A stretch of 64,000 nt of DNA from Streptomyces sp. TRM49041 (GTDB lineage: Bacteria > Actinomycetota > Actinomycetes > Streptomycetales > Streptomycetaceae). Of the stretch, positions 903 through 4,705 are shown piece by piece; position 1 is the stretch's first letter; each line of letters opens with the position of its first letter. A program made the position numbers and the translations under genes. The DNA lies in contig NZ_VSRY01000091.1 of the NCBI RefSeq assembly GCF_008271805.1, positions 62,001 through 126,000 on the forward strand. The letters are read 5' to 3'. A model generated the notes under the pieces. It did no database searches. It was not told the DNA's origin and saw only the letters and a program-made list of their open reading frames with translations.

Positions 903-3074
903 TCACCCCGCGACGGCCAGGACCAGCGGAAACACCCCCGGTGCACCGGCCCGCCGGAGCAGGCGCGCCGCGACGGCGAGCGTCCAGCCGCTGTCCGCGA
1001 AGTCGTCGACCAGCAGCACCGGCCCGCCCAGCGACGACAACCGGTCGGCAAGATCGGCCGGAACGGTCAGCGCCCGGTGCAGACCGCACAGACGCTGGGC
1101 GCTGTTGGTCCGTGAGATCCGCGCGTCCACCGCCTCCGGGGTGTACGTGACGGAGCCCAGCAGCGGCATCCTGCCGACCTCCGCGATCCGCCCGCCCAGC
1201 GAAGCCACCAGTCGGGGACGGCTGCGCGAGTCGACCGTGACCACCCCGGCCGGACGGGGTGGCGCCTCCGCACCGCCGGACGCCCAGCCGCCCGGCCCCT
1301 TGGCCCAGTCGGCCAGGACCCGCACCACCGCCTCGACCACATCGTCGGGCACCGGCCCGTCCGGTGCCCGCTCCGCCAGCATCGGCCGCAGCCGGTTGCC
1401 CCAGCCGATGTCCGACAGCCGCCCGAGCGCCCGGCCCGGGAACGACTGCTCCCCGGCCGGGATACGGCCCTTGAGGTCGACGCCGACCGCCGGCAGCCCC
1501 GTGGGCCACATCTTGCGCGGCTCGACCTCCACCCCGGGCCTGTTCAGCTCACCGCGCGCTGTTTCCAGAGTGGTGGCTGACACCTTGGGGTCGAAGCGCG
1601 GCCCCGCACAGTTGTCACAACGGCCGCACGGCGTCGCCTCCTCGTCGTCCAACTGTCGCCGCAGGAACTCCATACGGCAGGCGTCCGTCGTGACGTAGTC
1701 GCGCATCGCCTGCTGCTCGGTCGCCCGTTGCCGCGCCACCCAGGCGTACCGCTCCGTGTCGTAGGACCAGGGTCGGCCCGTGCTCGTCCAGCCGCCCTTC
1801 ACCCGGCGTACCGCCCCGTCCACGTCGAGGACCTTGAGCATGGTCTCCAGCCGGGCACGCCGAAGCTCGACCAGCGGCTCCAGCGCCGGCAGTGACAGAG
1901 GCCGGTCGGCGTGCGCCAGGACGTCCAGGGTGCGCCGCACCTGCTCCTCGGGAGGGAAGGCCACCGAGGCGAAGTACTGCCAGATCGCCTCGTCCTCCCG
2001 GCCGGGCAGCAGCAGCACCTCGGCGTGCGCCACACCGCGGCCGGCCCGGCCCACCTGCTGGTAGTAGGCGATGGGGGAGGAGGGGGAGCCGAGGTGCACC
2101 ACGAACCCCAGGTCCGGCTTGTCGAAACCCATGCCCAGGGCCGACGTGGCGACCAGGGCCTTGACCCGGTTGGCGAGGAGATCCTCCTCCGCCTGGCGGC
2201 GGTCCGCGTTCTCCGTGCGGCCCGTGTACGAGGCCACTGCGTACCCGCACTGCCGCAGATGCGCGGCGACCTCCTCCGCCGCCGCGACCGTGAGCGTGTA
2301 GATGATCCCCGAGCCCGGAAGCTCACCGAGATGGTCGGCGAGCCAGGCCAGCCGGTGCGCCGCGTCGGGCAACTGGACGACACCCAGCCGCAGGCTTTCG
2401 CGGTCCAGCGGGCCGCGCAGCACCAGGGCGTCGGAGCCCGCCGTGGTGCCCAGCTGCTCGGCGACGTCCGCCGTCACCCGCGCGTTGGCCGTCGCGGTGG
2501 TCGCCAGGACCGGCACACCCGGCGGCAGCTCCGCCAGCATGGTGCGCAGCCTGCGGTAGTCGGGGCGGAAGTCGTGCCCCCAGTCCGAGATGCAGTGCGC
2601 CTCGTCGACCACGAGCAGGCCCGTCGCCGCGGTCAGCCGGGGCAGCACCTGATCGCGGAAGTCGGGGTTGTTCAGCCGTTCCGGCGAGACCAGGAGCACA
2701 TCGACCCCGCCCTGTGCGATCTCCTCCTGGACGGTCTCCCACTCCTCCGTGTTCGACGAGTTGATCGTCCGGGCGTGGATACCGGCCCTGGCCGCGGCCT
2801 CCACCTGGTTCCGCATGAGCGCGAGCAGTGGCGAGACGATCACCGTCGGGCCGCCGCCCCGGGCCCGCAGCAGCGCCGTGGCCACGAAGTACACGGCCGA
2901 CTTGCCCCAGCCGGTGCGCTGCACGACCAGCGCCCGTCTGCCATGCGCGACCAGCGCCTCGATGGCCCGCCACTGGTCCTCGCGCAGCTTCGCCGCACCG
3001 GTGGCGTCGCCGACCAGGCGGGCCAGCACGGCGTCCGCTGCCGCACGCAGATCTCCGTCGTTCGTGTGCTCCAT
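903..3074 (-). CDS. recQ: RecQ-family DNA helicase with C-terminal phosphoribosyltransferase-like domain
   Basis: ATP-dependent 3'-5' DNA helicase, 723 aa. Seen: Walker A-like RTGWGKS near residues 53-60, DEAH at 157-160 in VVDEAHCISDWGHDFRPDYR, the helicase C domain motif QQVGRAGRG, and a zinc-binding cysteine set (CRMEF...CGRCDNC). The last ~130 residues are not RecQ-like. They contain VLLVDDFADSGWTL near 686-699, which fits the PRPP-binding loop of type I phosphoribosyltransferases. RecQ proteins usually end in an RQC or HRDC domain, so this tail is the notable departure. The ATG at 3074 faces the divergent DUF4192 gene across a 113-base promoter carrying two DnaA boxes. A role in recombination or repair is inferred; the substrate of the tail is unknown. 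Confidence 0.88.
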   Translation of the reverse strand: MEHTNDGDLRAAADAVLARLVGDATGAAKLREDQWRAIEALVAHGRRALVVQRTGWGKSAVYFVATALLRARGGGPTVIVSPLLALMRNQVEAAARAGIHARTINSSNTEEWETVQEEIAQGGVDVLLVSPERLNNPDFRDQVLPRLTAATGLLVVDEAHCISDWGHDFRPDYRRLRTMLAELPPGVPVLATTATANARVTADVAEQLGTTAGSDALVLRGPLDRESLRLGVVQLPDAAHRLAWLADHLGELPGSGIIYTLTVAAAEEVAAHLRQCGYAVASYTGRTENADRRQAEEDLLANRVKALVATSALGMGFDKPDLGFVVHLGSPSSPIAYYQQVGRAGRGVAHAEVLLLPGREDEAIWQYFASVAFPPEEQVRRTLDVLAHADRPLSLPALEPLVELRRARLETMLKVLDVDGAVRRVKGGWTSTGRPWSYDTERYAWVARQRATEQQAMRDYVTTDACRMEFLRRQLDDEEATPCGRCDNCAGPRFDPKVSATTLETARGELNRPGVEVEPRKMWPTGLPAVGVDLKGRIPAGEQSFPGRALGRLSDIGWGNRLRPMLAERAPDGPVPDDVVEAVVRVLADWAKGPGGWASGGAEAPPRPAGVVTVDSRSRPRLVASLGGRIAEVGRMPLLGSVTYTPEAVDARISRTNSAQRLCGLHRALTVPADLADRLSSLGGPVLLVDDFADSGWTLAVAARLLRRAGAPGVFPLVLAVAG

Positions 3075-3123
3075 GCCTCACATGGAACAGCACCACACCG
3101 ACAACCGGCGAACGGGCCGCCGC

Positions 3124-3151
3124 GCCCTGTGGACAACGTTATCCACAGGGG
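3124..3151. promoter_or_regulatory. Face-to-face pair of DnaA boxes
   Basis: 3128-3136 reads TGTGGACAA (TTGTCCACA on the minus strand, the GC-rich streptomycete DnaA box) and 3139-3147 reads TTATCCACA (the canonical box). With flanking CCC/GGG they form a 26-bp palindrome with one mismatched pair. It sits in the divergent recQ/DUF4192 promoter region. Two isolated boxes suggest transcriptional control or DnaA titration and not an origin. Confidence 0.7.
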
Positions 3152-3187
3152 TCGACGGGATGGCGGCTGTGACGGGACCGTCGAGCC

Positions 3188-4705
3188 ATGAACGCACACC
3201 ACGACAACACGGGTCCCCACGACGCACACCCGCCGTCCGGCAGCCCGCTCCCCGTCCGCTCGACCGGTTTCACCGAGGAGCCGCAGATCACCCTGCGAGG
3301 GCCGGCGGAACTGGCCGACGCGCTGCCCTACATGCTGGGCTTCCACCCGACCGACTCCGTAGTTCTGCTGGCGCTGCACGGAGAGCTCGGCCGCTTCGGC
3401 GGGCGGCTCAGGCTGGGCATTCCGCGCTCGCCCCGCGAATGGGCGCCCGTCGCCGAACAGCTCGCCGAATGCCTGGTCGAAGGCTGCGAGCGGCGCGGCT
3501 CCCGGCCGGACGGCATCGTCGTCTTCCTCTGCCAGGACCCGGCGGACGGGGAGAGCGGCCGACAGGTGATGGAGCGGCTGCGGCCCTTCGCCCAGAAGCT
3601 GCGCACGGCGTGCGGGGCACTCGACGTCCCGGTGTACGAGGCACTGTGCGTCTCCGCCGGCAGGTCCTGGTCGTACTGCTGCCCCGACAGTGACTGCTGC
3701 CCGCCCGACGGAACCCGGCTCGCCCCGCCCGGCACATCGGTGATGGCGGCCGCCGCGGCCTACGCGGGCATCCACGTCCGCGGCTCGCTGCGCGACATGG
3801 AGGCCAGGCTTAAGCCCCGGACGACCGCTGCCACCGTGGCCGAGCAGGAGCGGGCCCTGGACGCGGCGAGCGCCGCGCTCGTGCACCGCATGCTCGGCAC
3901 GAAGGCCCGCAAACGTGTGCGGGACGACACGATCCTGCTGGCACACCGGCTGCTCGACCGGCTCACCGAGCACCCGCCCCTCGCCGACCAGGGCACGTGC
4001 GACGACAGGGACGACGCCCTCATCGGACACGAGGAGGCCGCCGAGCTGATCGTCGGCCTGCAGGACCGCCGCACCCGGGACCGCGCCGCCGAGTGGATGG
4101 AGGGCCCGGAGGCGGACCCCGCTCTCCGGCTGTGGCGGGCGCTGGCCCGCCGCTGCGTCGGCGCCTACCGGGAACACGCCGCCGCACCGCTCACCCTCGC
4201 CGGATGGGTCGCCTGGTCGACCGGCGACGAGCCGAGCGCCCGCGTCGCTCTGGGGCTCGCGCTGGAGGCCGACCCCGAGTACGTGTTCGCCCGGCTGCTG
4301 CACCAGGCGTGCAACGAGCAGCTGGACCCCGAGACCCTCCGCCAGTGCCTCCGCGGCGAGCGCGACGCCCGTACGGCGGCGGCCGAAGCACGGCGTGCGT
4401 CCGGCACACGGGGCAGGGCCCGAGGCAGCGGGGCGCGCGGGGTGCGGCGGAGGACGCGTACCCGCGCGGCAGTCCGGCCGCGGGCAGCCGGGAGCACTCC
4501 GCCCGCCGCGCCACACCCGTCCCGCCCCGCCGCGGTGCCCGTCCCCACGGCGACGCGCACCGGACGCGGCGGCGACCTCCAGGGGCAGCGCAGCGGCCGG
4601 GGCGGCACGCGGGACGGTGGACCGGGCGACGGTCTGCCCGGCAGCACCGGCACCGGCACCGGGCCCGGGAGCGGGAGCGGGACTGACAGTGGGAGTGGCC
4701 GGTGA
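3188..4705 (+). CDS. DUF4192 domain-containing protein
   Basis: 505 aa. The N-terminal ~330 residues match the actinobacterial DUF4192 pattern: TLRGPAELADALPYMLGFHP, then DSVVLLALHG, and GDEPSARVALGLALEADPEY later. The C-terminal ~130 residues are low-complexity, basic (Arg/Ala/Gly) and end in a Gly/Ser/Thr tract, probably disordered. No signal peptide. Function unknown; DUF4192 proteins are soluble and common in actinomycetes. It is divergent from recQ, and the DnaA-box pair lies only 40-60 bases upstream of its ATG. That could place it with recQ in a replication- or damage-linked response, which is inference only. Confidence 0.8.
   Translation: MNAHHDNTGPHDAHPPSGSPLPVRSTGFTEEPQITLRGPAELADALPYMLGFHPTDSVVLLALHGELGRFGGRLRLGIPRSPREWAPVAEQLAECLVEGCERRGSRPDGIVVFLCQDPADGESGRQVMERLRPFAQKLRTACGALDVPVYEALCVSAGRSWSYCCPDSDCCPPDGTRLAPPGTSVMAAAAAYAGIHVRGSLRDMEARLKPRTTAATVAEQERALDAASAALVHRMLGTKARKRVRDDTILLAHRLLDRLTEHPPLADQGTCDDRDDALIGHEEAAELIVGLQDRRTRDRAAEWMEGPEADPALRLWRALARRCVGAYREHAAAPLTLAGWVAWSTGDEPSARVALGLALEADPEYVFARLLHQACNEQLDPETLRQCLRGERDARTAAAEARRASGTRGRARGSGARGVRRRTRTRAAVRPRAAGSTPPAAPHPSRPAAVPVPTATRTGRGGDLQGQRSGRGGTRDGGPGDGLPGSTGTGTGPGSGSGTDSGSGR

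Follow-up and report, generated by a model that had tools for sequence, protein, structure and literature searches.

A DnaA box at a conserved place before the DUF4192 gene of Streptomyces, a probable DnaA operator

Two DnaA boxes face each other between divergent genes in the window, the 64,000-nucleotide stretch of Streptomyces sp. TRM49041 analysed here, and the question they raise is which of the two genes, if either, they serve. A sequence-only reading of this DNA had described the boxes as a near-perfect 26-bp palindrome between a RecQ helicase gene and a DUF4192 gene, and had proposed that they couple both genes to DnaA level or to initiation, or that they act as a titration site. The site reads CCC TGTGGACAA CG TTATCCACA GGG, and the direct read confirms both the facing boxes and the palindrome; the features are collected in Table 1. 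The 9-mers match the Streptomyces high-affinity sequence TTGTCCACA and TTATCCACA, the former being listed as the high-affinity box of S. coelicolor DnaA in the available part of one report (PMC4285127).

Table 1. Features of the DUF4192 promoter region and its flanking genes, in window coordinates.
Feature	Coordinates	Strand	Remarks
RecQ-like helicase with C-terminal phosphoribosyltransferase-like region	903..3074	-	723 aa
TTCCAT, -10-like hexamer (predicted)	3082..3087	-	8 nt after TTGTCGGTG; orthologs often TTGCAT or TTGTAT
TTGTCGGTG, -35-like, of predicted recQ-like promoter	3096..3104	-	resembles RecA-NDp/PafBC type
Palindrome formed by the two boxes, 26 bp	3125-3150		12 of 13 pairs match; 3134/3141 mismatched
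Facing DnaA box TTGTCCACA	3128-3136	-	lineage-specific; spacer to core box 2 bp (CG)
Core DnaA box TTATCCACA	3139-3147	+	conserved element
11-mer TTATCCACAGG (core box with GG)	3139..3149	+	conserved element
GACCGT, -10-like, of predicted leaderless DUF4192 promoter	3176..3181	+	-12 to -7 of start codon
DUF4192 protein	3188..4705	+	505 aa; PF13830, 289.4 bits, residues 39-382

Exact boxes are over-represented here, with three matches to TTRTCCACA in the window against 0.29 expected from shuffles (one of 100 shuffles reached three), and the genome (7,492,674 bases) has 64 of them against 13 for a reversed control pattern. The palindrome TGTGGAYAACGTTRTCCACA has a single copy in the genome (reversed control 0), and there is one other pair of facing boxes with a spacer of 0–20 bp (contig C174, 9 bp). 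The third exact box of the window is a TTGTCCACA at 643–651 on the minus strand, away from the DUF4192 promoter; three close relatives whose loci span this position (L046, L054 and L112) have no exact box besides the pair.

The palindrome occurs in 22 of 199 genomes of the genus, once in each (reversed control 0), and all 22 copies sit directly upstream of DUF4192, with a recQ-like gene detected by tblastn at 21 of these loci (the exception is L002). All but one of the copies are perfect palindromes, the sole imperfect one being that of the window. Facing pairs with spacers of 0 to 20 bp are present in 67 of the 199 genomes, and of 22 further facing-pair loci that were examined, 15 are at DUF4192 and seven elsewhere. 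Because the box arrangement varies, orthologous promoters were then picked without reference to any box. They come from an even sample of 61 genomes of the genus, in 60 of which PF13830 was found; 59 loci were analysed, including that of the window, after removal of G001, which has no DUF4192, and of G032, whose gene runs off the end of its contig.

An exact plus-strand TTATCCACA starts 43–50 nt before the in-frame DUF4192 start in 55 of the 59 genus loci, although related genomes are not independent samples and the start codons are inferred. The distance is 49 nt in 29 loci (as for the 11-mer of the window), 48 nt in 21, 44 nt in two, 43 nt in two, and 50 nt in one. In the 50 loci with distances of 48 or 49 nt, an alignment anchored on the box leaves TTATCCACAGG as the only invariant stretch between −60 and +46; the mean top-base fraction is 0.44 on its upstream side and 0.55 on its downstream side. 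With the start codon as the anchor, the same loci also have an invariant C at −6 and at −1, such that the box is not the sole constrained part. Four loci break the pattern: L132 and L150 have boxes on the other strand only, L178 has an exact box farther off, and L151 has no box within 900 nt. The sequence-only reading had named conservation in the recQ promoters of other Streptomyces as its check, and the absence of the boxes from orthologous promoters as one half of what would count against it; the core box is conserved there, and that absence is not what we find.

A named sample holds the 78 loci that are the closest relatives of the window's DUF4192. An exact box lies 43–50 nt before the start in 61 of these (59 TTATCCACA and two TTGTCCACA), and a one-mismatch box is present in nine, seven of them at 48–49 nt and two, in Kitasatospora at 40 nt, doubtful. 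The other eight fail the box test, four of these having an exact forward box nearby and a start codon that was not assigned. Other genera of the family are represented by the 21 loci found among the best-scoring 30, and in 19 of them DUF4192 is preceded by an exact box on its own strand, the exceptions being L186 and L189.

The facing box behaves differently from the core box. A look at the 120 bp upstream of each of the 55 core boxes shows a nearest second exact box that faces the core in 32 loci and is on the same strand in three, with none in 20, and the palindrome is accordingly rejected as a conserved unit. The facing spacers are 2 bp in 13 loci, 24 bp in seven and 33 bp in three, with the rest scattered from 1 to 90 bp. 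Such variation is incompatible with a dimer operator of fixed geometry, so that the boxes look like separate DnaA sites of which the one oriented towards DUF4192 is the core; the facing box and the palindrome are lineage-specific.

DUF4192 is present in 78 of 98 genomes of the class. From the 72 of these outside the genus, 64 upstream regions were analysed, all outside the family and drawn from 28 families; the set excludes second copies and eight genomes whose matches are split, broken, partial or weak (G326, G252, G312, G339, G286, G299, G308 and G323). Counting boxes with no more than one mismatch, the 64 loci have 48 on the same strand in the 600 nt that precede the DUF4192 domain start, and 45 of these fall in four of 24 bins, from −175 to −76; other-strand boxes number nine, five of them in one bin of that range. 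An interval of 100 nt, −180 to −80, which was chosen post hoc after the bin distribution had been seen, includes a same-strand box (at most one mismatch) in 37 of the 64 loci, 11 of them exact, and an other-strand box in five. Other 100-nt intervals score zero or one locus on the same strand and zero to two on the other, and 299 permuted motifs average 0.57 loci in the chosen interval, the highest count being 12. Twenty-one of the 28 families have at least one box and seven have none; 27 of the 64 loci are without one, and the box is thus common, not universal. Two same-strand boxes 29–30 nt apart, or about three helical turns, are seen in L225, L229, L230, L234, L235, L250 and L274.

The genes beside DUF4192 were also considered, by scanning 20 neighbour proteins, with greedy open reading frame calls that are unreliable in the GC-rich class loci. 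Named neighbours of box-bearing copies were found at few loci, namely a D-serine dehydratase-like protein (L288), an LPG synthase (L292) and COX1 (L285, about 2 kb off), and a glycosyltransferase (L286) and a GGDEF protein (L290) lie beside copies without a box in the interval used. The differing neighbours are weak evidence and carry no weight in our conclusion.

A box at a fixed place before DUF4192 across these taxa means that expression of the gene is probably coordinated with replication of the chromosome. We think it likely, from conservation of the motif and of its position, that the site is a DnaA operator of the DUF4192 promoter, with the recQ-like gene as a bystander at most. A different reading, which we hold to be improbable, is that the palindrome is a datA-like site for titrating DnaA, and that its proximity to DUF4192 is incidental. 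Its boxes are of the high-affinity type and are paired in the window's lineage, and in a genome with 64 exact boxes each one could matter. Box clusters outside oriC are familiar from S. coelicolor and from the datA locus of E. coli, a titration locus of the datA kind being a cluster of boxes whose position is independent of any gene start. The site described here also has boxes outside oriC, but they are registered to a promoter and do not form a cluster, each core site of the genus having one or two boxes. Titration needs no fixed distance to the start of one gene, and yet in 50 of the 59 genus loci the box keeps to a single strand and to 48–49 nt from the start of a single gene, and the strand bias persists in the class, with 37 against 5 of 64 loci.

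The other gene at the locus is divergent from DUF4192, as the sequence-only reading had it, but is RecQ-like and not recQ proper: its match to the recQ equivalog model TIGR01389 is 283.4 bits, below the curated cut-off of 640.2. The best match is to PADLOC PsyrT (717.7 bits over residues 17–721 of 723), a helicase plus phosphoribosyltransferase; the C-terminal Pribosyltran match (20.8 bits) is under its cut-off of 26.3. We give little credence to the proposal that the box pair couples both this gene and DUF4192 to DnaA. In its favour, 55 of the 78 named loci have the two genes in divergent orientation, the facing box of the window begins 62 nt from the recQ-like start, and the only boxes of L132 and L150 point toward the recQ-like gene. 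Against this, 20 of the 55 core sites have no second box nearby, as noted above, and a search of 24 class loci, each taken with as much as 1.5 kb of flanking sequence, detected no recQ-like gene, although the box is present in 15 of them.

Further evidence comes from 21 loci (15 in the named sample and six in the even sample) where the recQ-like gene is inverted in place, with its 3' end toward DUF4192. Fourteen of these are usable, the recQ-like start being outside the locus in L078, L092, L096, L145, L151, L164 and L170. None of the 14 has an exact box, the only kind scored, in the 300 nt upstream of the inverted recQ-like gene (83 nt in L045), but DUF4192 retains its own, as an exact match in 13 loci and as a one-mismatch box in L080. 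Over all 21 inverted loci DUF4192 has an exact box in 19, the one-mismatch box in L080, and none in L151. The core box is thus independent of the recQ-like gene, and on these 14 loci coupling of that gene is rejected. Of the DnaA coupling first proposed, the link to DUF4192 is strongly suggested by conservation locked in position, and the link to the recQ-like gene is not; as judged from the inverted loci, the latter looks like a bystander at most. The 14 usable loci are L045, L063, L064, L065, L068, L072, L075, L080, L084, L085, L087, L110, L128 and L149. Inversion is scattered in Streptomyces and possibly happened repeatedly, and in L045, L063 and L064 the breakpoints are near the palindrome and the 3' end of the recQ-like gene.

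The genuine recQ of the window's genome is elsewhere (G000:C97:77833-79623; TIGR01389, 764.6 bits against the cut-off of 640.2), and TTATCCACAGG is present 59 nt upstream of its likely start. Thirty true-recQ loci (L323–L352) were inspected of 53 matches, and in 18 of them an exact box lies within the 300 nt before the domain start, on the strand of the gene in 11 and on the other in seven. The distances vary and there is no fixed place; the 11-mer, for example, is at −104 on the same strand in G000 and at −203 on the other strand in G009. Of the two genes measured, placement of the box is more rigid at DUF4192 than at true recQ. With boxes at 18 of 30 loci, a link between DnaA and RecQ may exist, at a locus other than this one.

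Three genomes of the genus contain 12, 14 and 12 copies of TTATCCACAGG (0, 1 and 0 for the reversed control), and the flanks were read for 30 of these 38 loci. Those common to at least two genomes are serS/prephenate dehydratase, Tpt1/MerR, an S9 peptidase gene, KbpA/TetR, DUF6397, true recQ, and dnaB/MatE. By its 11-mer DUF4192 joins a small group of genes, among them two helicase genes of replication and recombination. The copy between dnaB and the MatE transporter gene is seen in two genomes (L307 in G052 and L311 in G009). The interval between serS and the prephenate dehydratase gene has two facing TTATCCACAGG about 260–280 bp apart in three genomes (L300/L303, L302/L305 and L316/L319).

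That TTATCCACAGG is read by a regulator other than DnaA, or is itself a promoter element for a sigma factor, is a reading we regard as very unlikely. It could draw on the constant spacing between box and start within the genus, and on the GG after the box, which is invariant in the 50 aligned loci. Outside the family, however, the place varies, and the changes are mostly at positions 1–3 with TCCACA kept in all but one variant, as is expected of DnaA boxes; the facing second copies are exact DnaA boxes too, and the same 11-mer stands upstream of recQ and dnaB. An RNA hairpin, terminator or leader structure, to which a 26-bp palindrome might also point, is hardly credible and is rejected, as no T-run follows the palindrome on either strand in the window, the second box is missing from those same 20 core sites and the spacers vary elsewhere, and the site would lie upstream of both predicted promoters.

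The sequence near the DUF4192 start suggests a leaderless promoter of the sigma-70 type, with the box just upstream of its predicted −35 region. Of the 50 loci whose box stands 48 or 49 nt away, 21 of 21 and 27 of 29 have A at −11, and the same numbers have T at −7. The candidate promoter of the recQ-like gene resembles DNA-damage promoters of the RecA-NDp/PafBC type. A scan of 53 recQ-like genes finds TTGTC[AG] in the 150 nt before 21 of them (in L159 and L160 only at −79 or −83), and by eye many other recQ-like upstream regions have ATGTC or CTGTC at the same place. Some relatives have TTGTCAGTG-N8-TTGCAT where the window has TTGTCGGTG-N8-TTCCAT. In the accessible portion of a 2022 report, an initial search is described by which the PafBC motif is apparently not conserved in S. 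venezuelae (PMC9380542).

Under the operator reading that we prefer, DnaA would bind the plus-strand TTATCCACAGG, which immediately precedes the predicted −35 region of the probably leaderless promoter, and DUF4192 transcription would be set by the level or the nucleotide state of DnaA. A position upstream of the core promoter, as opposed to one overlapping it, somewhat favours activation over repression. The second box facing it at 2 bp may stabilise DnaA binding in the window's lineage. This would place DUF4192 with true recQ and dnaB in one small DnaA regulon, and sharing a regulon with these suggests a role for it in replication or recombination. A broader version is offered tentatively, and we lean against rather than toward it: DUF4192, with its RadC-like domain short of the metal motif and its TPR-like arm, would be a conserved replication or recombination factor of actinobacteria whose expression has been set by DnaA through the promoter box since early in the class, in one small regulon with dnaB and true recQ, and it may feed back on replication.

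In silico lists of Streptomyces DnaA boxes have been published. We found no study of this site in a search of the literature on Streptomyces DnaA boxes with recQ, DUF4192 or DnaA ChIP-seq, which covered few subscription papers, and the same literature yielded no genome-wide DnaA regulon for Actinobacteria. A box at a fixed place before one uncharacterised gene, and enriched over the class, offers a cheap and direct test of DnaA-controlled transcription, and its conservation points to a replication role for DUF4192, a family that one paper of the literature searched mentions by name.

DnaA is described as a transcription factor in E. coli, Bacillus, Caulobacter and others, activating or repressing according to its nucleotide and level, in the sections available of one review (PMC8203912). 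The DnaA-regulated promoters named there and in a second source, as far as their accessible text goes, are those of dnaA (autoregulation, including S. lividans and mycobacteria), nrdAB, sda and gcrA (PMC8203912, PMC11317965). The site described here is reminiscent of these in having boxes near a promoter and in the company of replication, repair and cell-cycle genes, given the 11-mer at true recQ and dnaB; it differs in that its target is the uncharacterised DUF4192, that it extends over many actinobacterial families, and that DnaA binding at it is a prediction. A point against the operator reading is that E. coli DnaA is described, in what is available of that second source, as preferring in vivo double boxes with 2–3 bp between them, which are modelled in tandem; of 32 single boxes that fit the consensus, only 13 lay in DnaA-bound regions (PMC11317965). 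The boxes of the window are likewise 2 bp apart but face each other, and other loci have one box, such that the tandem arrangement is not what is seen. The 9-mers are of the same family as those of the Streptomyces oriC, for which 19 boxes in two groups are given in the accessible part of one study (PMC3411110), compared with one or two here.

The DUF4192 protein itself was examined through a structure model (mean pLDDT 93.8). Its N-terminal half has a RadC-like fold, with model residues 4–138 matching 2qlc at Z 11.0 (rmsd 2.9 Å over 121 residues), where the usual best Z for models without a clear match is 7 to 8. The five best Foldseek rows against the PDB are all RadC, at E values of 0.005 to 0.014 and none at or below 0.001. 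The C-terminal half is TPR-like, with a best Z of 9.3, which helical repeats can reach without kinship. H-x-H is the metal-binding motif of RadC and the JAB domain. It is present anywhere in the sequence in four of 39 aligned DUF4192 proteins, with no column having H in more than 19 of the 39, and DUF4192 thus shares the N-terminal fold of RadC but differs in that this motif is not conserved and a TPR-like half is added. The shared fold says nothing of what DUF4192 does. A search of PHROGs gave no DUF4192 match; a weak structural match was seen to BFVD A0A6J5QCG9, a phage protein annotated as DUF4192 family, and phages may carry relatives of DUF4192.
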